From NCBI GenBank assembly GCA_018267475.1, contig JAFDYI010000021.1, forward strand, positions 1-55,105: 55,105 bases of DNA, given 5' to 3'. Positions 1 through 55,105 of the stretch are shown one piece after another. A program made the position numbers and the translations under genes. A model generated the notes under the pieces. The model saw nothing but the letters and a program-made list of their open reading frames with translations, had not been told where the DNA came from and did no database searches. Within the stretch, counting starts at the first letter, position 1, and the number at the start of each line of letters is the position of its first letter. The DNA comes from Bacteroidota bacterium (GTDB taxonomy: Bacteria > Bacteroidota > Bacteroidia > B-17B0 > Aurantibacillaceae).

Positions 1-391
1 TGTTTGACGAGGCGTATAGTTTCTTTTTTTATACTTTCTTTAAAAGAAGATAAAAGGTTTTTTTTTTTCATACTTTTTTTTGTCGCAAAAAAGTATGCAA
101 AAAGCCACCACGAAAACCAACCAGAAGCTTTTGTTTTTCGCACAGGGCTGCACCACCACAGCCACAAAACTTCTGGTTCGCACTTTTCGTGGACGCCTGC
201 CGCACTATTTTTTTTTGAGAACTACCCAAAAACAGCGCGCAAGCCGGGCAAATCACGGAGCAGATAGGCTTTGCGCGTAGTAGATTGATTGGGCTTGTTT
301 TTTGTTTCTTTTTCATCTAAGGAAAAAGAAAGTAAAAAGATTTTTTCTTTACAACGGGTGCTGAGCGGAGCCGAAGCGCCAAGCGCTCCCC
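1..391. other. Gene-free left end: interspersed repeat and hairpin
   Basis: No convincing gene lies here. Short ORFs on both strands are low-complexity and sit inside the repeat at 115-350. A hairpin with an 11-bp stem (CATACTTTTTT/AAAAAAGTATG) occupies 69-97 and looks like a terminator or part of the repeat unit. The stretch 361-390 is GC-rich with short inverted repeats, for example GGAGC at 367-371 and GCTCC at 385-389. It lies just after the stop codon of the minus-strand T9SS gene and may end its transcript. Confidence 0.7.
115..350 (+). repeat. Interspersed repeat, left copy (inverted match to the window's right end)
   Basis: Read on the plus strand, 115-350 matches the reverse complement of 54866-55105. 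The first 63 bases (115-177 against 55043-55105) are identical. The remaining ~170 bp are clearly homologous but contain substitutions and small indels. Conserved landmarks include GACGCCTGCCG, GCGCGCAAGCCGGGCAAATC and the block around TTTCTTTTTCATCTAAGG. The element has no recognisable transposase. It resembles a dispersed intergenic repeat family rather than an IS end. The left copy continues towards position 1, and the matching part of the right copy is cut off by the window edge. Confidence 0.85.
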
Positions 392-12941: not shown

Positions 12942-15479
12942 ATGAAGAAAATTTTATTGACAGCTTTAGCATTTACTTGTTTAAGCTCGATGGCTCAGAC
13001 GAAAGCCGCCCTTAACTTTAACGGAACTAATAATTATGTGCCCACGGTTAGCACGGGTACACTTAGTTTTACTGAAAGCGACAATTACACGCTTGAAGCT
13101 TGGATAAACCCTAGTGGATTTAATGGTCTTGCAGGAATAATCAGTAAATATCAAAACTGGGGATCTAATGGCTATACCCTTAGATTATCGGGTACAGCCC
13201 CTTATACCGGGATAAATTTTGACGGGTATCAAACTGCTCCTGGGGTACTTACTGCAGGTACCTGGTATCATATTGCGGCAGTAAATAATGGAGGTACGAG
13301 AACATTGTACGTTAATGGGGTGTTAGTATCATTATCTAATATAGGACACGTTGCGGTGCAAGCCAATAGCGATTCTCTTATGCTGGGGGTAGATTATAAA
13401 ACTAGTGGCCGTTATTTTAAGGGAACAATAGATGAGGTTCGCATTTGGAATGTTGCTCGTTCACAAAGCCAAGTACAGACCGATATGTGTTCCACGACAT
13501 CAAGTGTTCCGGGCCTACTGGTTTATTATAATTTTAATAACGGAATTCCTAACGGGAATAATACTTCTATTACAAATGTACCTGATGTAACGGGCAATGG
13601 ATATAATGGTACATTAGTTCATTTTGCATTAACGGGAACGACTTCTAATTTTGTCAACGATGTTCTACCTGTTGCTATCAATCCTGCATCAGTAACAATA
13701 ATTTCCGCCGAATCGACTACTTTAACGGCAAGTGGAGCTAGTTCTTATACATGGAGCACCTTAGCCACTACAAATTCTATTGTTGTAGCGCCAATGATGA
13801 CTACCGTATATACGGTAACAGGCACTAATGCTCAAGGGTGCACGGCAACAGCAACAAGCACCTTGGCAGTAAATGGGGCTGCCTTAAATTTTAACGGAAG
13901 CGCTAATTATATTAACGCTACTAATGCTACTGTATTTAGCTTTACTGAAACAGGGCATTACACGCTTGAGGCTTGGATAAATCCTAGTGGATTTAATGGT
14001 CTTGCGGGAATAATCAGTAAATACCAAAGTTTTGGAACCAATGGTTATACTCTTAGATTATCGGGTACAGCCCCTTATACCGGGATAAATTTTGACGGGT
14101 ATCAAACTGCTCCTGGGGTACTTACTGCAGGTACCTGGTATCATATTGCGGCAGTAAATAATGGAGGTACGAGAACATTATATGTTAATGGAATGGCGGT
14201 ATCTTTAACGAATGCTGGACACGTATCCGTACAAGCTAACAACGATGTTTTAACATTAGGGGTGGATTATCTATCTTCCGGTCGTTATTTTAATGGTACT
14301 ATAGATGAAGTACGTATTTGGAATCGCGCCCTGTGTGCTACCGAAATACAAAACAGCATGAATGCAGAGTTAAGAATGCCCCAAACAGGTTTAGTAGCTT
14401 ATTACCCATTTAATGAAGGCTTGGCAGGAATTAGTAATACAACTGTTACCGTTGCAGCCGATTCATCGGGAAATGGGTATAATGGTTCGCTAACCAATTT
14501 TACTTTAAACGGCACTACCAGCAACTGGGTAGCCCCCGGTGCCGTAACTACCGGCAGCTACGCTCCTGCTTATGTAGCTCCTACTATTGTTGTAAGCGGT
14601 AATACAAGTTTTTGTGTAGGGGGTACAACTACCCTAACAGCCGGTAATAACGTAAATACTTACACTTGGACGCCTGCTGCCAGCACAGCTTCTATAACGG
14701 TAAGTCCTACAGTTACCACTTCCTATTCGGTAGTAGGTACTACCAGCGTAGGTTGTGTGTCTAAAGTGACGGTTACAACAGTTACTGTAAATGCCTTACC
14801 CAATGTAACCGCCATGGCTACTTCTACCGCAATCTGTACAGGCAATAGCGATAGCTTACGAGCTACAGGTGCTGTAAGTTACGCATGGAATACATCTGCT
14901 ACTAGCGCCAATATAAGCGTTAGCCCTACCGCAGCCACTTCTTACACCGTAACGGGCACCGATGCTAATGGTTGTGTAAACACCGCTACAGTAGCGGTAA
15001 ATGTAAATGCTTTGCCTACGCTTTCATTAACGGCCTCATCGCCCAGCGTATGTGTAAACGGCACCCCTATCACTTTAACCGGAAGCCCCGCAGGAGGCGT
15101 ATATAGCGGTACTCATGTAAGCGGCAACACCTTTACCCCCACTGCAGCTACCGGTACTTTTAATGTAGTGTATAGCTATACCAATAGCACCACTTCTTGT
15201 TCTAATAAAGACAGCGTGGCTTTAGTAGTAGATGCTTGCACCGGCATAGCCCGTTATGCACAAAACAATTTATCTGTTTACCCCAACCCGGCCAGCAACC
15301 AAGTAACGGTACAAGCCAGTAGCGAGTTAGGAACGGTTACGGTTTACAACGCTATTGGACAAGTAGTAGAAGTGCTGCAAGTAAAAGACACCCAAACTCA
15401 ATTAAACGTAAGTGCTTATGCTTCGGGCATTTATACCATATTAACCCAAGGTACTTATATCAAGTTTATTAAGGATTAA
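12942..15479 (+). CDS. Two-LamG surface adhesin with type-A T9SS sorting domain
   Basis: An 845-residue secreted protein. A signal peptide (MKKILLTALAF..SMAQ) precedes a LamG/concanavalin-like domain (~25-230), an Ig-like segment (~245-310) and a second LamG domain (~311-520). Several Ig-like repeats follow, rich in Ser, Thr and Val (~545-760). The last ~75 residues (LSVYPNPASNQVTV .. YASGIYTI) form the type-A T9SS C-terminal sorting domain. LamG domains usually bind glycans or proteins, so adhesion or polysaccharide binding is inferred. The two LamG copies share a 128-bp identical DNA stretch, a sign of recent duplication or gene conversion. A terminator follows. Confidence 0.9.
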   Translation: MKKILLTALAFTCLSSMAQTKAALNFNGTNNYVPTVSTGTLSFTESDNYTLEAWINPSGFNGLAGIISKYQNWGSNGYTLRLSGTAPYTGINFDGYQTAPGVLTAGTWYHIAAVNNGGTRTLYVNGVLVSLSNIGHVAVQANSDSLMLGVDYKTSGRYFKGTIDEVRIWNVARSQSQVQTDMCSTTSSVPGLLVYYNFNNGIPNGNNTSITNVPDVTGNGYNGTLVHFALTGTTSNFVNDVLPVAINPASVTIISAESTTLTASGASSYTWSTLATTNSIVVAPMMTTVYTVTGTNAQGCTATATSTLAVNGAALNFNGSANYINATNATVFSFTETGHYTLEAWINPSGFNGLAGIISKYQSFGTNGYTLRLSGTAPYTGINFDGYQTAPGVLTAGTWYHIAAVNNGGTRTLYVNGMAVSLTNAGHVSVQANNDVLTLGVDYLSSGRYFNGTIDEVRIWNRALCATEIQNSMNAELRMPQTGLVAYYPFNEGLAGISNTTVTVAADSSGNGYNGSLTNFTLNGTTSNWVAPGAVTTGSYAPAYVAPTIVVSGNTSFCVGGTTTLTAGNNVNTYTWTPAASTASITVSPTVTTSYSVVGTTSVGCVSKVTVTTVTVNALPNVTAMATSTAICTGNSDSLRATGAVSYAWNTSATSANISVSPTAATSYTVTGTDANGCVNTATVAVNVNALPTLSLTASSPSVCVNGTPITLTGSPAGGVYSGTHVSGNTFTPTAATGTFNVVYSYTNSTTSCSNKDSVALVVDACTGIARYAQNNLSVYPNPASNQVTVQASSELGTVTVYNAIGQVVEVLQVKDTQTQLNVSAYASGIYTILTQGTYIKFIKD
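13179..13306 (+). repeat. LamG internal repeat, copy 1 (128 bp identical)
   Basis: This stretch is base-for-base identical to 14052-14179. Flanking DNA of the two LamG domains is similar but has many synonymous changes. Confidence 0.9.
14052..14179 (+). repeat. LamG internal repeat, copy 2 (128 bp identical)
   Basis: Second copy of the 128-bp identical segment, 873 bp downstream of copy 1 and in the same reading frame. Confidence 0.9.
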
Positions 15480-25964: not shown

Positions 25965-28900
25965 CTACTGTATTACAAACCGCAAGCTAAACCCGGCATT
26001 GGTTATTTGCGTAGGGAATGAAGTAGAAATAACGGGGTTGTTAATGGTTCTATCGTAGTAGAAACGTAGGTTGATAGTGGGGGTAAGCGCATACGATAAG
26101 GATATTTTAATGGTGGTAATGTTTTGCCCGTTGCTTACCTGGTTAAGTTGAGCAAACTTATCTGTAAACGAGTGGTCAGTGTTTTCTTTGTATATATCTA
26201 CTGCCTGGCGTAAGATAGATTGCGTCTTTCGGAGCGATAGGGTAACGGTAGCTAACAAATCGCTTTTGAGCGATTTGCCTCGTATTTTTATTTTTTTAAT
26301 TTCTAGCTGAGGTAAGGTATAGTTTACCCCTATGTTATACTCGTTGCTGTTCATCTCCATTATTTGCGGCACGTTTGATGATAAAGACATCATGCGGTCG
26401 CGTTTTATTTCAAAATTAGCTCCTAAGCCTTTCATCTTTCCTTTGTCCACCAACATCATATTTACTTTTATTAGCGGCGAAAAAGATTCGCTTATGTTTA
26501 CGGTATTGATTACATATTGTGATACAAAGTTTGATGAGGTAGTGTCTGACGTTCGGGCTCCTCCCCCTGCTGCATAGGCCTGGTTGTTGGTGTAGTTGCC
26601 ATAGCTTAGGGTAGAGTGGTAGCCGTGTGTAAGCACAATAGATTTGAACCATTTTTTTACAAAAGGAAGTTTTCCTAAACCATCAAAGGTTACATTCCAA
26701 CCCGGTAAAGGCAAGCGCGAGAATGGATTTTTGCTTACCGTTTTAGCCTTATCGCTGGTAGAGGTGTAGGCTTGCACAAAAGAGTTGATTACTACATCTT
26801 GCTGGTTTAGGTTATATCCATCGTAATATCCGTTTTCGTTGGTATGCTTTGCGTTTGAATTTAGAGAATTTAGCTCTTGCGAATACTGCCCGCGCAAAAA
26901 CAGGTATCGTTGAAAGTTAGAATTATCGTAAGAACCGTCCGTATTTGTTTGGCTAAAAGCCGTAGCAATAGAAATAACAGAAATGCTGTAATTACCGCCA
27001 AACACAGGCGAGTAATGGGTATATCCGGGGTTGTATGTGTGGTTTATGGAATCATGATAGCCAATAAAATAACTTTCGGTTTGGGCGTGCGTCATATTAC
27101 CGCTTAGTGTAATTTTTAAGCTTTTTATAGGTTCTATATTGGCATTGTAGGTAAGGGTTTGGGTTTTGGTATGTAGGTATTGGGTAGAAAAGTTCTGTCG
27201 GTGCACCAGCCAGTTGTTTGCCTCGGCATCGTGCACCACGCCCGTTCGTGGGGTTAATACTTCATTGATACCGTCGTTAAAACCGGGCATGGTTCCTTGG
27301 TTTCCTCCAAACACAAAGCCCGGGCCGGGGGCCCCTATACTACCGGCATTATTAGACATACCCAGTATGCTTGAGGTAGGCGCAAAGCCGGGTAGGGTAG
27401 TTCCTTGCGTAACGTTGTAATTGCCCTGTATTTGTTTTACCGTCATCAATACACGGGCTAGGTAGTCAAAGATTTCTAAAGGGTTGCTGTCGCTTTTTTT
27501 AGCGCTGTCTGGTTTAGTTGCTTGGTTGGGTTGCTGGGTAGTACCCGGTGGCGGCTGTCCCGGCGGGGGCTTTTTGCCTTTCGGGTTTTTGTTGTTTTTA
27601 TCGTCTTTTTTCTTTTCTTCTTTTTTAGGCTTGGGCAAGTTTTGATTCAAACGCTTTAGGTAGGGTATTTTATTGTATAGGTTCACCATGTTTAGCTGGG
27701 CGGTATAACCTTGTGTTTGCGTATTTTGAATGGTGTTTCCTACACTATCTACCGAAAAAGGCCGGCGCAACCATTGGTAGTTTCCTGCATACTTTACCGA
27801 TGCTTGCTGTATAAAATCTAAAGCCGGTATTTTATTAAGCGGCAGGGTTATATTGATGTTCGTTGTTTGTTGGTAGTTGGTATTGGTACCGCCTTTTACC
27901 AGTAAGTTTTTGGTTACTAAATTTTTCTCGGCGGAGGTTACGTTTCGGCCTGTATCATACATTTCTAATACGCGGCCAATGTTTACTGCGGTAAAATCTA
28001 TTTTGATGTTTTTAGTTAAATTCCACTTGGTAGCGTAGTTTCGGGTAAGGTTAAACGTTTTGCTGTATTGGGTTTGTGTAAGTAAGGGATCGGTGCTTGT
28101 TTCTGATGAAATATCGCGGGGCTTCATTTCTAAATAGGTTCGTATTACGGAGTTGCTAAAGTTAAATTGGGTAGGGAAGGGGGTAATGCTCATATCTTTA
28201 ATAAGAGCCAGCCAGGGGCTTTGCAGCAGTTTAGAGGGCGATTTTTTGAAAGGCTCTATAGGTTTAGCTTGTAATTGGTAGTTGTAGCTTAGCAAGCCGT
28301 TGTAGGTACGGCTTTCGCTGTGGTCGGTGGTTACATTTCGTTTAAAGATGCGTGTGTAGGCATACGTAACCGAAAAATTTTCTATATCCCAGGGGTACAT
28401 TTTGGTTTTGTTTTTCCCTCGTTGTTTGCTTACATTGGTAAAGTTATAGCCTTGTTGCAGGGTGTGGTCAATAGCTCGTTGTTTTATGAGCGTTACTTCA
28501 TTATCGTTAAAATAGTTGTTTTTGGTGTTTATTTGATTCATCAATATATCGCCATTGGTAGGGTCGTACTGGGGTACTAAGTCGGTAACCGATTGTTGGA
28601 AAAAGAAAGGCAGGTTTACATGCCAATCTTTAGGTAAAAACTTAGCTAACTGAAAGGTGCCGCTAAGGGCGTACTGCTGTGTGGTGTTTCTACTTCGGTC
28701 GGTCGGTTTCACATCTATCCCACCAAAGAAGGGCGTGGCATACTGTCCGGAAAAAGACAGTTGCCCAAAGTCAGCGAGTTTGGCGGTTACACGAGCCATT
28801 ACGGCTTGCCCTCCATGTTGGTTAAAGTCGGTAACGCGCAGCTCGTCCACCCACACTTCGGCGCTTGTAGGTCTTGGGTTCATGGGGGTAAGTGGGTTTA

Positions 28901-31900
28901 AAACGCCTATCATCACGCTGGTAATGGCTCCCATATTAGGATTACCCACTACGCCAATAATGTGCGGCGCGCCTGTTTCGGAGGTGGTGCTAACGGTGTA
29001 CGAGCCGGTAGAGATGTTTCCTCCGGAGTTGGCGTTTCTTAAAAGTTTTAAGTTTTCTACTTCTTCTAAGTTAATAATTACTTCGTTGGCAGATGGCCAT
29101 ACCTTGCTGCGGTCGGCGTCGTTGTTGTTGTCGTAGTAACCCGGTGGGGTAAGCTGCACCGGCACTTCGTACAGGTAATAGTTGTTGGTAAAGTCGCTGC
29201 CTATGCGTACAAACAAATGCACATCGCCATTGTTTAGGGGTTTATTGTCTAGCTTTTCTCCATGCACAAATAAGCGAATTTTTTTATACGAACGAAAATC
29301 GTTGGAGATGTTTTTGTAGATGGCGCGTGAGTCCCCGTCTTTTAAATTATCTACTTGCATAGAAAGCGATTGCTCGTTCATCAATACCAAGTTGGTAGTT
29401 TGCACGTTTTGCTGTTGGTTAATGCCGGGCGGAAGCACATAATCTATAGGGGTGCGTGTTCCATTTTCTTGGTAGCTTACCCCTGAGGTAATAAAGGTAG
29501 TTTGCTGACTGGTTATTAAGCCTCCGGTGGGTATAGATAAGTCTTGTTGGTAGTTACGCCAATCGTTTCGCACCAGCTCCAAACGGGCAAAGCGCATCAC
29601 TACCGGGGCGCTAAAGTTTTTTACAAACATACGCATAAAGCGAATGGAGTTATACCCTTCTATAGAGCCTATTTGGGCATCGTAGTTGGTAATCGGAATT
29701 TTAAATTGATAAAAATTGATAGTGCGTTGCACGCCGTCTGGCCCTTGTTTGGTGATAGGTACTACGTTTACAATATAGTTGTTGCCCACGTTGTTTACGT
29801 TTATATCTTGAGGCGTAACTTTTATTTTGTATTGATAGTAGCTTTCGGCTTGGTTTAAGGTGTTATCGCGGTTTATATCTTCAATATCGGGTATGGTGGT
29901 TCCTACGGTAGAGTAGCCTCCTTGGTTTTGCCCTTGGTATTGGTTGGGGGTGGGTGAGTTTCCTTCTAAGTGGTTGTATGATTTGTATCGGTATAAGGTG
30001 TTGGCAACAAAGGTGGAGGTGGTGGCCATATTGTCGTAGTCATCACCACGATAAAAATGGTAATTATCGCCCGATGGATCGGAAAAAGCAGTAGAGTTGG
30101 TAACACCCAGTCCGGTAAGGGAGGCGGTATAACCGGTAAAAAAAGTTTTTTCGTCAGCATCTTTATAGCAATCAAGCCCTACATCTTGCACCGGGCGCGA
30201 TGCGGTATTGATGTCAAATGCGTTTACTAAAGGTGGGGTAGAGGGCGAGCGTCCCCAAGCTGTTTTTTGCAGCAGGTGGCTGGTATCTGTTCCACTGGGT
30301 GGAATGCCGTTTTCGTACGACATATATCCGTCTCTTAAAATATCCTCCGAAATGTTTCCTAAGTTAAAGTACAGTTCGCCATTGGTAGGGGGTGGTTGGT
30401 GAAAGGTGTTGTATTGCGATTGACTTTGGTTGTTGTAATCTTCATTGAACGGGTCCATCATCCAAAATTGTATGTATTCGATATTGGTTGCTTGAAAATC
30501 GTTGGTGGTAAGGCTGCGCATAATACCGGCCCAACGTGTTTGGGGTTTGTTTAGCACAATGCTTCCCAATGTGTTTGATTGCGCCACATCAATACCGGCT
30601 GAAAAAGGAGTAGCTTTGGTATCAAAATTGTAAGGGCCTCTTTCTGAGGGGTAATAAGCCAAATCCAACATAGGTAAAAGTTGGGGTTGATTGTTAGGGG
30701 GTGTTTTTTTAGGGAATAAATCGTTTTCAAAAAAGGCTTCCATATAGTGGTTGCTTTGCACTACGGTAGTTACCTGAGGCGGGGTGATGCCTGATGCTTG
30801 TTGATAAAACACCGATTGATCTACGTTGTACCAAGCCAGTTTGGCTCTGTTTTTACCCCAACGTAGGCTGTCGTTGGCAAAGGCGCCGCCGGTTTCCGGA
30901 AATAAAAAGGGTTGTTGGTCGGGTATGGAGGAGAAAGCCCAAGAGGAGGCTGTGCGCAAGTCAATAGTAGAAATGCTTCCTTCAAAATCGTCAATATAAG
31001 AGGTTCCGCCATTGCTGCTTATGGCGCGTGCGTGGCCGGGTATTAGGTCGGCAGCTTCTCCGGCTACGTTTATAGAAGATTGCTCTTTGGTTTTTATTAG
31101 CGGGATACGGTTGATTAATCGGGTAAGCCAAGGAGCATTTGCGGTATAGTTTCCATCTATTCCCAACATGGTGTTTGATACGGGCTCGTCGCCAATGTTT
31201 ACTTTTTGGGTAAGGGGGCGTTCGCCGTAATGCAAAATGGTGCCACCCAAATTTAGGTTTTTACTGTATTTGTAATCAAAACGGGCACCCATCATGCTTT
31301 TTTGTTGCACATTAAATAAGGAGTTGTTTTCAGCTGTAATTTGTATGTTTTGCCCTGAGTTTAAAACGCTTTCGTTAATAATTTTTACGCGGCCCAAGTT
31401 GTAATCTACGGTGTAATCTACGTTTTCTACTAAGGCTACGCCCCCTGCGGTTACTTTTACAGAACCCTGCGGAATGTTCATGGCATTTAAAGAAAACTCA
31501 TTGCTGGTAGCCGACTGATAAGAGCCTTTTAGCTTATAACGGTCTTTATTGGGCAACTGCTGCGCCGATACTTTGGTACTATCATACAATTCCTGAAAAA
31601 TATAATTTTGAATATCCGGCCAGTGGTTGGTTTGCTCGTCGGGCGTAAAGGCCTGTAAAAGGTCTTTACCAAAAGGCTCTACGTGCGTAAAATATACGCG
31701 GCCGTTTTGTTGGTTTACCGTTACATTAGGTATAAAATCATATACTCCGTCCGGAAACAAATCTTGGTTTTGGTTGATGCGGTCTAAGCCCATTTTTTGT
31801 ATGAGCAGATGCCCGTCCATAGAGCCGTAGGGGATATAAGGAATATCTACCCCTGTTTTTATGTTATTGTAAAAAACTTGCAGTTGAAAATTGGTTTGAC

Positions 31901-33602
31901 TTAAAGAGTAAGCGCCCAAACTATACACGTTTTTCATCATCAAATCCCACATGGGTATTTGTAAGTGCACCTGCGTGCTTTTTAATAGTTTCATTACCAG
32001 CATTTGGTTGGCCGAAGGAAATTGATCAGAAAACTCTCCTACTTGATATACTTTGCCCCCTAAGGTGTATTGATACGAAACCATCAACACTTCGTCGTAG
32101 TTAAGAGCGGTATTTAATGAAATATAACCTAAGCGGTTGTTGAGGTAATAATCGCTGGCGGGGTCTAAACGGCGGGCACGGGTTAGTATTTCAAACTCGC
32201 GGCCTACATTAAAGTTGGGGCCGTTGGTGCCTTGTGGCGCAGTAAGGCTGGAAACGGCTGTGTTGTATTGTCTGTTTTTGACCAAGCCGGGTTGTGTTGG
32301 GTTTGTAGAATCTACTAATAGTTGGTATAAATTATTGATGGTGTTTCGCGGGTTTTTGGAGCCACCCGACATACTGTCTTGTATGTTGTAACTTGGATTT
32401 CCGCTGTTGGTATTTTGGCGGTATATGTGGCTGGTGTCTTCGCCTAAATCAGAAAAACCGGCTATGTTGCGGGCTTGTGTAAATTGGGCTGTTTTATTGG
32501 TTACCCACACTTCTATTTTAGTGATTTGTATAGGTGATGATACAATGGGAGGGTTGCCTACCCAGGTGCTGTAATTATCTCTAAACCATTGCCCTAAAAA
32601 GTAGTGGCGGTTGGCCTCATAGTTATCAGCTTGCACGGTATAGGTCATGGTTTGAGCGCCGTTTTGTATGTTGAGCTGGGTTTTTTTACCTCGTTGTTGT
32701 GCTGCCATGGCTATTACCGATAATTTACCAAACTGCATGGTGGCTTTTACACCAAACAAGGTTTGACTTCCTTGTATCAGCGAGCTGTTAAGAGGTAAAC
32801 TTACGTTACCGGCTTCTACTTTTTTTAATATATCATCTTCATCGCCGGCCCATTGCAGTTTTACTTGGTTTTCAAAATCAAAAGAAGCTTCGGTGTTGTA
32901 GTTCATCATCAGCTTCATTTTGGTGCCAATATTTCCAATCAAATTCATTTGAATTTTCATATTGAAATTAAAGTTGGTGATTTTGCGTTGCTTTACCGGT
33001 ATGGCCGGGTTTTGGTTTCGGTTGGTGATGGTACCAAAGTCTAGCTCGGCGCTTCCGGTAGGTCTAATGTCCACGTTATTACCTCCAAACAGTCGGTCAA
33101 ACAGTTCGCTGTTTACTTTTATCATAGGCACCAGGCGTCTTTTGGTGGGGTCGCTTTTAGAGTCGGCTTGTATGCGCGATTTCCAATAGCCTTTTACCAT
33201 CTGTCTAAAGCGGTAATCTTGGTATTCTTCCTGAGTCATATACGTAGGAGGGCGGTAATTCAGGTCGCCCATTTTTTGGGTAAAGGTATAGCTGCTATCG
33301 GCGGGGTTGTAATCGGTAGTGGTTTTTATGTTGCCCGGGCTATTGAGCTGCATGGGGTTTGTGGCGTTATATACAGGCTCTCCATATCCATTGTCTTTTA
33401 TGGGATAGTGCAAATCGCTATTGGTTACCGGAGGGGCTGCCGGAGGAGTATCGTTTGGCATTGTTTTTGTGAAGGGGTTGATAGCTTGCTTGCCTGAACG
33501 TTCGGGTAGGAGGCGTCCTGTTTTACTACCCGAAAAGGTAATAACCGAAAACAGAGCCGTTGCCGACCCTACGATTAAGGTATTTTTTAAAGCAGCGTAC
33601 AC
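25965..33602 (-). CDS. sprA: SprA, outer-membrane translocon of the type IX secretion system
   Basis: A 2545-residue giant beta-barrel protein. In well-studied relatives SprA forms the 36-strand pore through which T9SS cargo crosses the outer membrane, and it is needed for gliding. The sequence shows an N-terminal hydrophobic signal region, long strand-rich repeats, the conserved block around YIDDFEGSISTIDLRTASSWAF near residue 860, and a terminal strand ending in SLRFVIQ. A Lys/Pro/Gln-rich low-complexity linker occupies about residues 1980-2040. The start codon is GTG, 3 bp after the ruvA stop. The ruvA-sprA order is conserved in Bacteroidota. Two likely cargo proteins, with type-A and type-B signals, are in this window. 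Confidence 0.95.
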   Translation of the reverse strand: MYAALKNTLIVGSATALFSVITFSGSKTGRLLPERSGKQAINPFTKTMPNDTPPAAPPVTNSDLHYPIKDNGYGEPVYNATNPMQLNSPGNIKTTTDYNPADSSYTFTQKMGDLNYRPPTYMTQEEYQDYRFRQMVKGYWKSRIQADSKSDPTKRRLVPMIKVNSELFDRLFGGNNVDIRPTGSAELDFGTITNRNQNPAIPVKQRKITNFNFNMKIQMNLIGNIGTKMKLMMNYNTEASFDFENQVKLQWAGDEDDILKKVEAGNVSLPLNSSLIQGSQTLFGVKATMQFGKLSVIAMAAQQRGKKTQLNIQNGAQTMTYTVQADNYEANRHYFLGQWFRDNYSTWVGNPPIVSSPIQITKIEVWVTNKTAQFTQARNIAGFSDLGEDTSHIYRQNTNSGNPSYNIQDSMSGGSKNPRNTINNLYQLLVDSTNPTQPGLVKNRQYNTAVSSLTAPQGTNGPNFNVGREFEILTRARRLDPASDYYLNNRLGYISLNTALNYDEVLMVSYQYTLGGKVYQVGEFSDQFPSANQMLVMKLLKSTQVHLQIPMWDLMMKNVYSLGAYSLSQTNFQLQVFYNNIKTGVDIPYIPYGSMDGHLLIQKMGLDRINQNQDLFPDGVYDFIPNVTVNQQNGRVYFTHVEPFGKDLLQAFTPDEQTNHWPDIQNYIFQELYDSTKVSAQQLPNKDRYKLKGSYQSATSNEFSLNAMNIPQGSVKVTAGGVALVENVDYTVDYNLGRVKIINESVLNSGQNIQITAENNSLFNVQQKSMMGARFDYKYSKNLNLGGTILHYGERPLTQKVNIGDEPVSNTMLGIDGNYTANAPWLTRLINRIPLIKTKEQSSINVAGEAADLIPGHARAISSNGGTSYIDDFEGSISTIDLRTASSWAFSSIPDQQPFLFPETGGAFANDSLRWGKNRAKLAWYNVDQSVFYQQASGITPPQVTTVVQSNHYMEAFFENDLFPKKTPPNNQPQLLPMLDLAYYPSERGPYNFDTKATPFSAGIDVAQSNTLGSIVLNKPQTRWAGIMRSLTTNDFQATNIEYIQFWMMDPFNEDYNNQSQSQYNTFHQPPPTNGELYFNLGNISEDILRDGYMSYENGIPPSGTDTSHLLQKTAWGRSPSTPPLVNAFDINTASRPVQDVGLDCYKDADEKTFFTGYTASLTGLGVTNSTAFSDPSGDNYHFYRGDDYDNMATTSTFVANTLYRYKSYNHLEGNSPTPNQYQGQNQGGYSTVGTTIPDIEDINRDNTLNQAESYYQYKIKVTPQDINVNNVGNNYIVNVVPITKQGPDGVQRTINFYQFKIPITNYDAQIGSIEGYNSIRFMRMFVKNFSAPVVMRFARLELVRNDWRNYQQDLSIPTGGLITSQQTTFITSGVSYQENGTRTPIDYVLPPGINQQQNVQTTNLVLMNEQSLSMQVDNLKDGDSRAIYKNISNDFRSYKKIRLFVHGEKLDNKPLNNGDVHLFVRIGSDFTNNYYLYEVPVQLTPPGYYDNNNDADRSKVWPSANEVIINLEEVENLKLLRNANSGGNISTGSYTVSTTSETGAPHIIGVVGNPNMGAITSVMIGVLNPLTPMNPRPTSAEVWVDELRVTDFNQHGGQAVMARVTAKLADFGQLSFSGQYATPFFGGIDVKPTDRSRNTTQQYALSGTFQLAKFLPKDWHVNLPFFFQQSVTDLVPQYDPTNGDILMNQINTKNNYFNDNEVTLIKQRAIDHTLQQGYNFTNVSKQRGKNKTKMYPWDIENFSVTYAYTRIFKRNVTTDHSESRTYNGLLSYNYQLQAKPIEPFKKSPSKLLQSPWLALIKDMSITPFPTQFNFSNSVIRTYLEMKPRDISSETSTDPLLTQTQYSKTFNLTRNYATKWNLTKNIKIDFTAVNIGRVLEMYDTGRNVTSAEKNLVTKNLLVKGGTNTNYQQTTNINITLPLNKIPALDFIQQASVKYAGNYQWLRRPFSVDSVGNTIQNTQTQGYTAQLNMVNLYNKIPYLKRLNQNLPKPKKEEKKKDDKNNKNPKGKKPPPGQPPPGTTQQPNQATKPDSAKKSDSNPLEIFDYLARVLMTVKQIQGNYNVTQGTTLPGFAPTSSILGMSNNAGSIGAPGPGFVFGGNQGTMPGFNDGINEVLTPRTGVVHDAEANNWLVHRQNFSTQYLHTKTQTLTYNANIEPIKSLKITLSGNMTHAQTESYFIGYHDSINHTYNPGYTHYSPVFGGNYSISVISIATAFSQTNTDGSYDNSNFQRYLFLRGQYSQELNSLNSNAKHTNENGYYDGYNLNQQDVVINSFVQAYTSTSDKAKTVSKNPFSRLPLPGWNVTFDGLGKLPFVKKWFKSIVLTHGYHSTLSYGNYTNNQAYAAGGGARTSDTTSSNFVSQYVINTVNISESFSPLIKVNMMLVDKGKMKGLGANFEIKRDRMMSLSSNVPQIMEMNSNEYNIGVNYTLPQLEIKKIKIRGKSLKSDLLATVTLSLRKTQSILRQAVDIYKENTDHSFTDKFAQLNQVSNGQNITTIKISLSYALTPTINLRFYYDRTINNPVISTSFPTQITNAGFSLRFVIQ

Positions 33603-50930: not shown

Positions 50931-51905
50931 TTAAAAGTCTTCGTCTAAATTAAAATTATTGTTGTCGGTTTTGCTTTTGGTGGCAACCCCTGCTTTTTGA
51001 TATTCGGCCACGCGTTTTTCAAAAAAGTTGGTTTTGCCTTGTAGCGATATCATTTCCATAAACGGAAAGGGGTTTGAAGCGTTGTAGTATTTGGGGCAAC
51101 CCAAGGATACAAGCAGGCGGTCGGCTACAAATTCAATGTATTGACACATCAGGTCGGCGTTCATTCCTATAAGGCGTACGGGTATAGCATCTGATACAAA
51201 TTCTTTTTCTATGCTTACGGCATTGGTAATAATTTCGGTTATTTTGGCAACCGATACTTTGTTTACTAATTGGCTGTGCAGCAGGCAAGCAAAATCGCAG
51301 TGCAGGCCTTCATCACGACTAATCAGCTCGTTGCTAAAGCTTAGGCCGGGCATTAAGCCGCGTTTTTTGAGCCAAAAAATAGAGCAAAAAGAGCCTGAAA
51401 AAAAGATGCCTTCTACGGCAGCAAAGGCTATCAGGCGTTCGGCAAAACTTCCGTTGTTTATCCACTTTAAGGCCCATTCGGCTTTTTTGCCTACGCAGGG
51501 CACGGTATCAATAGCGTGAAACAGTTTGTCTTTTTCGGCGGGGTCTTTTATATAAGTATCTATTAGTAAAGAGTAGGTTTCGGAGTGAATGTTTTCCATC
51601 ATTACTTGAAAGCCATAAAAGCAGCGGGCTTCGGGGTATTGCACTTCGTTTAAAAAGTTGATGGCTAAGTTTTCGTTTACAATACCATCGCTGGCAGCAA
51701 AAAAGGCTAAGACGTGTTTTATAAAATGCTTTTCGTCTGCATTTAGTTTGGTTTCCCAATCTTGTATATCCGAGGCAAGGTCAATTTCTTCGGCAGTCCA
51801 AAAGCTGGCTTCGGCTTTTTTATACATATCCCAAATATCTTTATGTTTTATAGGGAACAGTACAAAGCGGTTTTTGTTTTCGATTAATAAGGGTTCTTGT
51901 TTCAT
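50931..51905 (-). CDS. nrdB: Ribonucleoside-diphosphate reductase, beta subunit (class Ia)
   Basis: A 324-residue di-iron subunit carrying the tyrosyl radical. It closely follows the eukaryote-like R2 pattern: D42 in WTAEEIDL, E104 and H107 in ENIHSE, the radical tyrosine Y111 ([10 protein letters not shown]), E in [10 protein letters not shown], and ExxH in [10 protein letters not shown]. The C-terminal acidic tail (FNLDEDF) is the peptide that docks onto the alpha subunit. It is transcribed ahead of nrdA. Confidence 0.96.
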
Positions 51906-52217
51906 AGTATTATATATATAGTGGTGTTATACGGGTTCTTTTTTTGTGTTTACAAAACAAGTTTAAAAAAACTGGTGCGCAAAAAAAAACCATTAACACT
52001 TTGTACACACTTTTAAACAGCAAACATTTGTTTAGGCGGCTAAGTACTCTGATTTACAAAAGGTTGCTTCATTTCTGAAAAAATATAAAAACTATTTTAA
52101 AAAGCTATTGCACGTTTGATATAAAATAATATGAGGTTTGTTTTTTTAAGCCTGAGCGGCCTTTAAACTTATTGGTACAGCACTATTTTATCTTGCTTTA
52201 TGTGAGTGCTATCAGGG
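51906..52217. other. Intergenic region upstream of nrdB
   Basis: This 312-bp stretch holds no ORF I can support. Near nrdB is an alternating TATATATATA run (51911-51920). Its minus-strand reading, CCACTATATATATAATAC, resembles only the left half of an NrdR box, so regulation by NrdR is possible but weakly supported. Farther out lie an ACACTTTGTACACACTTTT stretch and AT-rich DNA. The last ~80 bp follow the minus-strand barrel-like gene and show no clear terminator. Confidence 0.5.
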
Positions 52218-52838
52218 TTATTTCCTTTTGTCTATTATTCCAAATTTAAAACTAATTCCAGAGCAAGGCCAAATTGGGTTAAAAGTATAATGAGTATTAA
52301 AACGAGAATAAAAACAGTTTACAGACACATATACGTCCATGTGTTTGTTTACTATATATTTTAGCCCAATTTTACCCGTGTAAGCTAAATCAAAAGATTT
52401 CTCGAATGTGTTTGTCCCATATTTACTAATAGCGGCATAGGAATCTTGATTATATAATTTTAAATAATCATTTTGATTACTTGCGCCAGAGGGGAAAGGA
52501 TTGGTTCCGATTACCCCAACAATCCCGACCCCTGCTATTAATTTTACTCTGCTTTTACCTATATATAAAGTATAATCAAGCGGCATTAAAACCCTATTAA
52601 ACCCTCCAATTGGAGGAAAGCCAAGCCCTAATTTTGCGCTATGATATAAGTATTTTTTTACGAAAAAAATACGCTCATAATTTAAGGAATACACAAGTCC
52701 GGCTCCGCCTAATTCAAGGGAGATGTTATTGTGGGGTACATATTTTTTATTGACGCATAATGTGTCTTGTGCCTTGGCATTAAAAACAAAATAAAAACTG
52801 CTTAGAATACAAACAAGTTTGATTGTTTTTTTTCTCAT
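52218..52838 (-). CDS. Secreted outer-membrane-barrel-like protein of unknown function
   Basis: A 206-residue protein with a signal peptide (MRKKTIKLVCILSSFYFVF..KAQ) and alternating beta-strand patterns (ISLELGGAGLVYSLNYERIFF, VKLIAGVGIVGV, GLKYIVNKHMDVYVSVNC). This resembles a small outer-membrane beta-barrel. The final strand ends in FKFGIIDKRK. It is the last gene of the four-gene minus-strand cassette, 3 bp after the lipoprotein gene. The specific function is unknown. Confidence 0.75.
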   Translation of the reverse strand: MRKKTIKLVCILSSFYFVFNAKAQDTLCVNKKYVPHNNISLELGGAGLVYSLNYERIFFVKKYLYHSAKLGLGFPPIGGFNRVLMPLDYTLYIGKSRVKLIAGVGIVGVIGTNPFPSGASNQNDYLKLYNQDSYAAISKYGTNTFEKSFDLAYTGKIGLKYIVNKHMDVYVSVNCFYSRFNTHYTFNPIWPCSGISFKFGIIDKRK

Positions 52839-52841
52839 ATT

Positions 52842-53615
52842 TTACTTAATGTAAACTTGTTTAGTGGCTTGATAAAAAATGGGAAAACAAAACCGTTTTC
52901 CTCCAAACATTTGCATATTATTCTTTAAGCAAAAAACACCAATAAACCCTTGCCCTGAAACTAAAGCTGAAAGTTCTGAACTGGAAAAAGAAACAGAGTT
53001 TACCCCTATGTGTAAAGAATGAACAACATCATTTGTACCTCCATCATCTATACCTATTGTTATTTCATCTGCACCATTAATCCCTGTTATTTGCAGCGTG
53101 TTTTGTTGTGATTTGTAAATAGTATCAGGCAATAAAGCATATCCGGTATATGAGGGCATATTATTGGTATTAGTATAGGTAAAAGACGGAATAGAACCCG
53201 ATCCCGTTACAGCCCAAGTGTAGGGTGGATTAACATTATTATTACTTGAGGCAGTATCATGATAGCCAATGGGGTTTGAATTAAACACATAAGGAATGTT
53301 ATTTAGCGAAACCGTACCTCCGAATACCGGAAACGCATTTGATGCTTGATAAATAGGTTGTTGCATAGGGGTAGTTTGAAAGTTTTTAAGATATATTGGG
53401 GAGGAAGTAAAAAAAACATTCCATCCTAATACTGATAAAGAATAAATAGTTGATCCTACTATGTATTGTTGCCCTACAATTTGAAGTTCCCCATAGTGAG
53501 CGGTAGTATCTGTGTTTGGATTGTTGTTATTACTATTAGTAGTTGTGTTTTTCTTACACATGCAAAAAATAAGCATAAGTAAAACGGTTGCGGTTGTATT
53601 AAATATTTTGTTCAT
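52842..53615 (-). CDS. Putative lipoprotein of unknown function
   Basis: A 257-residue exported protein. The leader ends in a lipobox-like LMLIFC, with Cys18 or the nearby Cys20 as the lipid attachment site. An Asn/Thr-rich linker follows (KKNTTTNSNNNNPN), then a beta-rich domain with no motif I recognise. Likely anchored in the outer membrane and surface-exposed or periplasmic. It lies 3 bp before the barrel-like gene and 46 bp after the 99-residue gene. Confidence 0.78.
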   Translation of the reverse strand: MNKIFNTTATVLLMLIFCMCKKNTTTNSNNNNPNTDTTAHYGELQIVGQQYIVGSTIYSLSVLGWNVFFTSSPIYLKNFQTTPMQQPIYQASNAFPVFGGTVSLNNIPYVFNSNPIGYHDTASSNNNVNPPYTWAVTGSGSIPSFTYTNTNNMPSYTGYALLPDTIYKSQQNTLQITGINGADEITIGIDDGGTNDVVHSLHIGVNSVSFSSSELSALVSGQGFIGVFCLKNNMQMFGGKRFCFPIFYQATKQVYIK

Positions 53616-53661
53616 CTTTCTATTCTGCTATTGTTATTATTACTTCCATTTTTATTAAGAA

Positions 53662-53961
53662 CTATTTTTTTACCACACTATAATTTTGGAATACACATAA
53701 TGGTTCCATCAAAATTAACTCATCTTCAAAATATCCGCAAGGTGCATTATTTTGAGTAGGATCCGTATATAAATTCCTTTCGGGAATAGGCATGCTTTCG
53801 CCTTGATTTATTCCTACTTTTAAAAAATCGTTATTTAACCTCGTTCGATAATACCAGTATCTTTCATGTAGAATATCGGACGGAGCAAACTGAGCCGTTA
53901 TTTGGCTGCATAAGAAAATAAAAATAAGCAGTGGAAAATAGCAGCATATTTTTTTATTCAT
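53662..53961 (-). CDS. Short secreted protein, possibly truncated
   Basis: A 99-residue protein with a clear signal peptide (MNKKICCYFPLLIFIFLCSQ..TAQ). The mature part starts ILHERYWYYRTRLNNDFLKVG and GESMPIPERN, which resembles the N-terminus of larger Bacteroidota secreted proteins. It then ends early at FQNYSVVKK. It may be a truncated relative of such a protein or a complete small secreted protein. Its start overlaps the upstream lipoprotein gene by 4 bp (ATGA), so it is translated with it. Confidence 0.65.
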   Translation of the reverse strand: MNKKICCYFPLLIFIFLCSQITAQFAPSDILHERYWYYRTRLNNDFLKVGINQGESMPIPERNLYTDPTQNNAPCGYFEDELILMEPLCVFQNYSVVKK

Positions 53962-54494
53962 GGTGTAATGGTTATTTCGGTAAATACTAAGTCATAATAG
54001 TTGCCATTGTTATCAGTTCTGCATAATTTCAAAGCGCTTCCGTATAATTCTTTAATAGTAAAAGTAGTTGGGAAGTTAGGAAATAAAAAGCCTTTGGAAT
54101 AATAATTTGGAGAGGTTGATGGTGGAGCGGGGACTCCTCCCCATTGGTCGTAAAAATTTACTTCTTTGTTGTTGTTGCCAAAACTTACAAAGCCATTTTC
54201 ATTAGTGTCATACAGCATGAAATCAATATAGGCAGATTGACCACCTTGAGCTGGTTCGTTGTCTATTTCGAGCACGTGAGTATAATTGGGTGTTGCGGTG
54301 TTCGTTACGGAATAAGTAAATTTACTCATACTATCTATACCATTTATTTTATAGCTTTTTAGCTGCCATTTTTTACAAATTCTGGTTGTTACGCTTTCGG
54401 TAGATATAAAAGGGTCATCAGGGTATTTATGGCAACTTCCGCATAAAACAGCTATAGTTGCCAATATAAAACCTATATTTGGTGCTTTTTTCAT
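53958..54494 (-). CDS. Lipocalin-like lipoprotein
   Basis: A 178-residue lipoprotein. Its leader ends in the lipobox LCGSC (Cys21). The mature part has the start KKWQLKSYKINGIDS typical of lipocalin-like Bacteroidota lipoproteins and a beta-rich body ending ALKLCRTDNNGNYYDLVFTEI. Ligand unknown. It is the first confidently called gene of the cassette; a promoter lies about 150 bp upstream at 54646-54676. Confidence 0.75.
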   Translation of the reverse strand: MKKAPNIGFILATIAVLCGSCHKYPDDPFISTESVTTRICKKWQLKSYKINGIDSMSKFTYSVTNTATPNYTHVLEIDNEPAQGGQSAYIDFMLYDTNENGFVSFGNNNKEVNFYDQWGGVPAPPSTSPNYYSKGFLFPNFPTTFTIKELYGSALKLCRTDNNGNYYDLVFTEITITP

Positions 54495-54513
54495 TCTTGC
54501 TATTTTATAAAAA

Positions 54514-54636
54514 TTACTTCTTTAGTTTTTTCAATTCAATGTTTTCTTTTTGCAGAGTTTCTACTTTTTTGTTTGGCTTTATCACGTATAGGGTAAGCTC
54601 TTTTGTTTTTCCGACCTTTGATAAGATAGCAGGCAC
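54514..54636 (-). CDS. Candidate 40-residue peptide in the cassette leader
   Basis: A frame from GTG 54636 to TAA 54514 encodes a Lys-rich peptide with a helical, coiled-coil-like C-terminus (KKVETLQKENIELKKLKK). A second overlapping frame from ATG 54640 to TGA 54536 (34 residues, MSACYLIKGRKNKRAY..) starts 5 nt after the -7 box, in the leaderless position. Only one, or neither, may be translated; the pair could also be one frameshifted gene. Stop lies 19 bp before the lipocalin-like gene. Confidence 0.3.
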   Translation of the reverse strand: MPAILSKVGKTKELTLYVIKPNKKVETLQKENIELKKLKK

Positions 54637-54645
54637 TCATAAATG

Positions 54646-54676
54646 CGAATATACTACAATATTTTGGTAAAAGCAA
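54646..54676 (-). promoter_or_regulatory. Promoter of the lipoprotein cassette (TTG-N20-TATATTCG)
   Basis: On the minus strand TTG (54676-54674), a 20-nt spacer and TATATTCG (54653-54646, one base from TAnnTTTG) give both Bacteroidota promoter elements at normal spacing. Confidence 0.5.
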
Positions 54677-54865
54677 CTTTTTTTAGAAAATATGTTGAAA
54701 AATTATTTTCGCCGGGTTATTTTTTTAAGACATTTTTTAGTGCAAAAAAAACGGCAGGTAGAGATAAAAAAAATGATTCGTGAGAGGAGGTTTTCAGCAG
54801 CGATAGCCGCATGCGAGCATAGAAGCGGTCGTAAGGCTTTGCGAAGCATGTCGGCGGTTTTCTGC

Positions 54866-55105
54866 AAAGAAAAAATCTTTTTTATTTTCTTTTTCCTTAG
54901 ATGAAAAAGAAACAAAAAATCAAGGCAAATCAATCTACTGTGCGCAAAGCCTAACGACTCCGTGATTTGCCCGGCTTGCGCGCTGTTTTTTTTGATAGTC
55001 CTCAAGAGAAACTAGTTCGGCAGGCGTCCTCGAAATGTGCTTACCAGAAGTTTTGTGGCTGTGGTGGTGCAGCCCTGTGCGAAAAACAAAAGCTTCTGGT
55101 TGGTT
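54866..55105 (-). repeat. Interspersed repeat, right copy (truncated by the window edge)
   Basis: This is the inverted counterpart of 115-350; the terminal 63 bp are identical to 115-177 read on the other strand. Homology stops inward at about 54866, in a run of A and T (CAAAGAAAAAATC), where the two flanks become unrelated. The outer part of this copy lies beyond the window. Confidence 0.85.

Follow-up and report, generated by a model that had tools for sequence, protein, structure and literature searches.

Four tightly packed genes at one end of a Bacteroidota contig encode products without a recognised family, and the question that they raise is whether they form an envelope system of their own or are what is left of a larger one. 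The DNA analysed (the window, 55,105 nucleotides (nt); contig JAFDYI010000021.1 of assembly GCA_018267475.1, Aurantibacillaceae) is the entire contig C13 of a 2.76 Mb genome that is 99% complete, and the operon, whose products are referred to here as P0001 to P0004, adjoins the contig end. We propose, with a probability of roughly one half, that this operon is a reduced version, still expressed, of a conserved surface cassette, which we define in this analysis as A-B-C-D(-E), which recurs in Bacteroidota and which includes E in some copies. The relevant features of the window are as follows.

54514 to 54636, minus strand: remnant of gene A, a GTG-started open reading frame (ORF) of 40 amino acids (aa); its last ~30 residues correspond to the coiled coil at the C-terminus of family A.
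53958 to 54494, minus strand: gene B (P0001), a 178-aa predicted lipoprotein, assigned by its match to the B profile (E 2.9e-24) and by the family alignment.
53662 to 53961, minus strand: mini-C (P0002), 99 aa, comprising a signal peptide and the N-terminal module of family C, without sorting domain.
53761 to 53880, minus strand: conserved C N-terminal module within P0002 (YWYYRTRLNNDFLKVG..GES.P..ER), E 8.4e-21, module positions 5-44 of 46.
52842 to 53615, minus strand: gene D (P0003), a 257-aa predicted lipoprotein rich in Asn and Thr; D-profile E 6.4e-36.
52218 to 52838, minus strand: gene E (P0004), a 206-aa protein resembling a small outer-membrane barrel; E-profile E 1.9e-27.

A preliminary description, made from the sequence alone, had presented a compact accessory envelope operon of two lipoproteins and a small barrel, and to this extent it was right. 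As it had stated, the four minus-strand genes are tightly joined, with an ATGA overlap between P0001 and P0002 and following gaps of 46 and 3 base pairs (bp) in the ORF coordinates, and each product carries a signal peptide or lipobox: by reading rather than by a signal-peptide predictor, lipobox-like cysteines are seen in P0001 (..VLCGSC-HK) and P0003 (..IFCMC-KK), and ordinary signal peptides in P0002 (..ITAQ-F) and P0004 (..AKAQ-D). The products also proved as hard to name as it had said: scans of all four against Pfam and NCBIfam yielded no family above threshold, those with PADLOC and PHROGs no match, and an Rfam scan of positions 51900-55105 sub-threshold matches only.

The identity of these genes becomes apparent by comparison with the cassette. 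There, gene A encodes a secreted, tail-fibre-like protein that has a coiled coil at its C-terminus; B, the lipoprotein family of P0001, is encoded immediately upstream of C; C is a protein of ~700-870 aa bearing a type IX sorting domain; right downstream of C follow one or two lipoproteins of family D, to which P0003 belongs; and E is the barrel family of P0004. To assign the window proteins, B, C and D profiles free of window sequences were used, with seeds from collection loci only and members chosen with earlier profiles, and the search space was composed of the four window proteins, 948 non-member ORFs and the reversals of these ORFs. The earlier hidden Markov models used for synteny were iterated on sets including window proteins; the quoted E-values are not from those. 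Against the values listed above, the best decoys reached 3.6e-4 for the B profile (33 proteins), 9.7e-4 for the D profile (20 proteins) and 0.13 for the E profile (five relatives, window excluded, including two paralogs from the same genome). P0002 matched the C profile at E 3.3e-18 over its residues 7-72, the best decoy being a 102-aa ORF (E 2.4e-6) that itself resembles another C stub. BLASTP of P0002 against relatives gave 9e-11 and 2e-15, and the 811-aa C protein of genome G014 is 48% identical to P0002 across its residues 18-59. Thus, the window contains a B-family lipoprotein directly 5' of, and on the same strand as, a C-derived gene (P0001 followed by P0002), with a D-family lipoprotein (P0003) on the 3' side. 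What it lacks is a full-length C with its toroid-like core, residues 7-72 of P0002 being all that matches C, and an entire A upstream of B, of which the remnant of ~30 residues is all that was found. Hence what the preliminary description called a "short secreted protein" corresponds to the N-terminal portion of a family of large type IX cargo proteins.

Gene order A, B, C, D surrounds the C genes of G014, G022, G104 and others. An alignment-based scan of the named collection for C returned 112 relatives, unlike a scan of genome contigs with a single C protein, which gave no match. Eighty of the 112 were examined as loci, and synteny was counted at 79 of these, L182 being left out because the ORF caller used gave no C_N gene there. 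A was found upstream of C at 40 loci, B adjacent at 22, D downstream at 11 and E at one. Where the first C ORF measures at least 600 aa, A lies upstream at 35 of 46 loci; where it measures 380-599 aa, at none of 23, the other 10 loci having shorter ORFs. A-C pairs occur in Kordia algicida, Aquimarina sp., Chryseobacterium limigenitum and Taibaiella koreensis. Of 395 genomes sampled from the whole class, 45 contain the C module (E <= 1e-6). C-core proteins that are 389-489 aa long and lack both a sorting domain and a neighbouring A gene were also seen at L166, L169, L178 and L192, the hosts being Saprospira grandis (489-aa C alone), an Archangium metagenome-assembled genome (MAG) and a Bdellovibrionales MAG; from these lone proteins, the core is spread more widely than the cassette. 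Topic searches of the literature, limited in coverage, turned up no paper on the cassette, though an existing description may have been missed.

The same families thus occur together in other genomes, a check that the preliminary description had called for, and this indicates that their grouping goes beyond chance; the genes were not found only apart, nor did they fall into well-known unrelated families. The compact gene order and the envelope signals had suggested a new, self-standing assembly of two lipoproteins, a short secreted protein and a barrel. This was not borne out, and we now regard it as highly improbable: all four families belong to the larger cassette, and the four-gene set without A and C was not seen to be conserved in close relatives, the C module being found in one of the seven genomes of the genus, namely the window's own. 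Because P0002 is an N-terminal piece of C and a further gene remnant lies between promoter and operon, the locus is better described as a reduced cassette.

How far has the reduction gone? When all six frames of the whole window were searched with the A profile (an A-tail profile iterated on loci of the earlier synteny search), the best match was the 40-aa ORF just upstream of P0001 (E 1.1e-5). P0002 has kept an open frame, a signal peptide and all module residues that are invariant or near-invariant in the family. Behind it, no further C sequence was detected in any frame, and as to C_CTD/Por_Secre_tail, P0002 has no Pfam match and the frames around its end have no significant C_CTD match; a four-residue "NAPC" resemblance to C, spotted by eye behind P0002, was dropped.

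Similar reductions are seen elsewhere. Among 87 genomes of the family, 29 contained matches to a 46-position model of the module, 42 in all, with open frames of at least 500 aa in 24 cases, 160-251 aa in four and at most 131 aa in 14, and none between 251 and 509 aa; some of the 14 short frames are incomplete matches or lie at contig ends, and two hold stops. We examined 12 minis, those at hand rather than a random sample. Nine have no countable trailing C (in three of them, all that follows is where the next copy begins, and in L143 there is a marginal match of 19 residues at 0.0013), while the remaining three run on into a frameshifted C. In G270, which belongs to another family, the window's order is repeated: an A-tail ORF of 57 aa, B, a mini-C of 77 aa and a lipoprotein. 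Rearranged copies were also observed. L054 (in G034) is an array of B and D copies with a 200-aa C_N::A-tail fusion ORF, a visible recombination product. At L309, a 226-aa lipoprotein and a C N-terminus are repeated in tandem; the copies are similar, but one C is a stub and the other has 809 aa, and the lipoprotein in the B position matches the B profile weakly in one copy (5e-6) and not in the other.

These data bear directly on the main and most serious rival of a maintained reduced cassette, namely simple decay, in which tandem duplication and recombination at the 3' end of A and the 5' end of C broke an old cassette, leaving P0002 as a dead stub and the leader upstream as repeat-borne debris, with B, D and E perhaps persisting for the time being. 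Such an origin is a real possibility, though we would not favour it. It is in keeping with the near-complete loss of A, with the absence from P0002 of over 85% of the length of C, with the joining of C_N to A-tail amid several B copies in G034, with a near-identical tandem copy with stub in G365 and with the three minis that continue into frameshifted C. It accounts less well for the open frame and signal peptide of P0002 and its full set of invariant or near-invariant module residues, for the same reduced order in the other family of G270, and for the strong purifying selection that emerged when minis of two other genomes were compared.

That comparison concerned L133 and L196, both of which are arranged as B, mini-C, B and a longer C, with the stop of mini-C overlapping the start of the next B. 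Between the two minis, the synonymous rate (dS) of the module was 0.91 and the nonsynonymous rate (dN) 0.06, i.e. a dN/dS of 0.06 over 36 codons (Fisher p about 5e-6); between each mini and the longer copy of its own genome, dN/dS was 0.07 and 0.11. The signal peptides of the compared copies could not be aligned while the module was kept. For L143, synonymous change was saturated, with a pN of 0.16. These values suggest that the mini-C of L133 and L196 is under constraint if the truncation that they share is ancestral, as the matching breakpoint suggests; that two old copies were each truncated recently and separately is less likely. One might go further and take mini-C itself as a functional secreted microprotein, a competitor or chaperone of the C toroid or a ligand of B, for the sake of which reduced cassettes are kept. 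The dN/dS range of 0.06-0.11, the module outlasting the signal peptides and the grouped frame lengths in the 87 family genomes would all agree with this, but the window's genome has no full C to serve as target, the selection result comes from few codons in one lineage, and the 14 short frames include several that are incomplete, reach a contig end or contain stops. We consider it unlikely.

Upstream of the operon, the following elements were located.

54495 to 54700, minus strand: repeated leader, made up of the promoter and the A-tail remnant, which occurs five times in the genome with differing downstream genes.
54646 to 54677, minus strand: promoter-like pair, GTTG at 54677-54674, then 20 nt, then TATATTCG at 54653-54646.
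54863 to 55105, no strand assigned: interspersed repeat at the contig end, with inverted copies at the other contig end (window 115-353).

The two-element promoter of the preliminary description is therefore present and of Bacteroidota type, and its second element lies one mismatch from the -7 box TAnnTTTG, given as consensus in PMC9723704. A sigma-70 scan found fewer sites than in its shuffles, as expected since the promoter is not of the E. coli type. Four further loci of the genome carry the leader, on contigs C12 (95%), C21 (89%), C18 (91%) and C11 (82%), and its conserved core, GTTG-N20-TAyATTCG followed by the A-tail remnant, is near-identical at all five. In six other genomes of the genus, short matches of up to 57 bases were seen in five and none in the sixth. 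Downstream of the leader stand B, mini-C, D and E in the window, a 320-aa sorting-domain protein on C18 and a 311-aa lipoprotein on C11. As read from the alignment, three of the five copies have an A-tail frame that is open from GTG, whereas the C12 copy lacks a start and the C18 copy is frameshifted; the broken frames, which fit decay, indicate that DNA rather than peptide seems to be what is shared.

From these elements, a mechanism can be sketched for the reduced cassette. In the full cassette, C would most likely be displayed at the surface beside lipoproteins B and D, and in most members C should leave the cell by type IX secretion. The window itself encodes the export channel for such cargo, since it contains a full-length gene for the type IX translocon SprA/Sov (25971-33356, minus strand; TIGR04189, 2291 bits), and 88 sorting-domain matches were counted in the genome. 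B and D would be held by their lipids in the outer membrane, with the small barrel E beside them, and the C module may dock on B, a contact suggested by B and the module being neighbours in full and reduced cassettes alike. In the window, transcription probably starts at the leader shared with four other loci. The bodies of A and C, taken as the outward parts, have been lost, with B, the C module, D and E remaining; P0002 would retain its contact with B without an outward-facing C body and, as it has no sorting domain, would be expected to stay periplasmic or lipoprotein-bound after Sec export.

Several observations weigh against this reading. Firstly, the docking idea rests on gene order, and since B also precedes full C, a pair of B and module is what would remain however C was truncated. 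Secondly, by reading, the motif C-X-K-(D/E)2, a lipoprotein surface-export signal according to PMC5080379, is in neither P0001 (C-HKYPDD) nor P0003 (C-KKNTTT), though this lineage may use another signal. Thirdly, the module search found no other C N-terminus in the window's genome, nor was a full-length C found, and the one A found with a body, on contig C1, is cut by the contig end. Fourthly, two leader copies precede what looks like decay: on C12, where a B-like lipoprotein and a 104-aa ORF lie downstream, the B-like gene is followed by a more damaged C-like fragment, and on C21 there are fragments only, namely a lipoprotein fragment (raw sequence) and a 100-aa ORF. Finally, the selection result covers 36-38 codons of two other genomes and not P0002 itself.

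A bolder form of the proposal is that the N-terminal module of C (~40 residues) is now a stand-alone secreted microprotein and that its association with B, in some cases joined by a coiled-coil peptide derived from A, makes up a reduced surface system which is kept by selection and has arisen more than once, and that the repeated leader here drives it together with other loci, mostly for secreted or lipid-anchored proteins. We put this forward tentatively, as rather doubtful in its entirety. As for the reduced cassette as such, each of its steps (cargo, lipoprotein partners, barrel and recombination) is of an ordinary kind; what is unusual is that C has repeatedly been cut back to its N-terminal module, apparently under selection, and that five loci share a leader.

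We then turned to the individual families. For C, 63 of 70 ORFs were aligned (alignment A2; seven of at least 1000 aa dropped), for B 30 of 34 ORFs plus P0001 (A3; four short ones dropped) and for D 17 of 22 plus P0003 (A4; two short and three dissimilar ones dropped). Among 31 B-family members scanned, two match GH43_C (best E 0.025) and one Lipocalin_4 (E 0.0085), all weakly, while P0001 itself has no match in that scan; the earlier label "lipocalin-like" thus draws weak support from a few relatives and none from P0001. The model of P0003 (predicted local distance difference test score, pLDDT, 72.9) is beta-rich with two beta-sandwich domains, of which the second is better predicted and Ig/fibronectin-like; its best fold match has a Z of 8.2 (94 residues, root-mean-square deviation, rmsd, 2.5), about the range that the tool calls common, and it points to no particular function. 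P0004 has two paralogs in its own genome, one of them between A and a 731-aa type IX protein; E also lies between A and C at L135 and on contig C15 of G270, whereas P0004 stands last, after D. The barrel is thus a recurrent rather than universal member.

C is a widespread secreted family. Apart from the sorting domain, the Pfam scan of 63 members gave no convincing family for its core and profile comparison no PDB relative, and a match to phrog_4564 (unknown function; 5.9e-4 over 25 residues) was taken as chance. A model of 818 aa built from 63 sequences (pLDDT 81.0, predicted TM score 0.79) has a helical core, and the structural matches that cover it are mainly toroids of the GH9 glycosidases: 3h7l (Z 10.5, rmsd 5.5, 359 residues), 5e2j (Z 9.7, 319 residues) and 5dgr (Z 9.4, 363 residues), all below the Z level that the tool advises for helical folds. 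Foldseek alone gave no match for the model at E <= 0.001. Any likeness to GH9, with its (alpha/alpha)6 toroid, would be one of fold: HHalign against 23 GH9 proteins gave a probability of 1.9%, PF00759 was found in none of the 63 members, and membership was rejected. The model is suggestive of a toroid-like fold, to which we assign no activity. Three acidic residues of the core, E95, D124 and D147 in the numbering of L120, are invariant, and D80 is nearly so.

The several B copies beside C stubs could also recall a polymorphic toxin-like array, with C as secreted effector, B and other lipoproteins as immunity proteins, and stubs and copies generated by recombination. There is little to recommend this, as what remains of C is the N-terminus rather than variable C-terminal tips, PADLOC gave no match, and the 63 C members carry no known toxin domain in Pfam, bar one with RTX calcium-binding repeats; a defence or toxin-immunity role found no support.

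Among known systems, the full cassette has a likeness to type A cargo of type IX secretion, as 30 of the 63 C proteins match Por_Secre_tail (PF18962) and SprA is encoded in the genome, although P0002 has lost the sorting domain. The placing of a secreted protein gene beside an outer-membrane barrel gene has a precedent in type B cargo with its PorP/SprF barrel (SprB-SprF and PG1035-PorP), as outlined in PMC9143113, which also describes PorP/SprF as 14-stranded FadL-type barrels. In contrast, P0004 has 206 aa and no PorP/SprF match, Pfam and NCBIfam giving only OMP_b-brl at E 0.03, below cut-off, and C has a type A domain. Sus-like systems likewise combine lipoprotein and outer-membrane protein genes in one operon, but none of the four products matches SusC or SusD families, and no canonical export signal was read.

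The operon ties unannotated envelope genes to a cassette that is present in many Bacteroidota families and whose A-C pairs occur in cultured species open to genetic testing. It also suggests a route by which a large type IX cargo may be cut down to a short secreted peptide with its partner lipoproteins still in place.

Two repeat features of the window remain to be described. The interspersed repeat noted beside the operon was confirmed, positions 54640-55105 having 28 matches in the window's own genome (G000), itself included, and the contig bearing inverted arms at 115-240 and 54980-55105 that are 89% identical. Several contigs stop in or beside this repeat, the present one at both ends, and the assembly thus breaks there. 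Elsewhere, direct repeats of 300 nt each (13063-13362 and 13936-14235, 88% identical) lie within the ORF at 12942-15479, at the end of which a type IX sorting domain is encoded.

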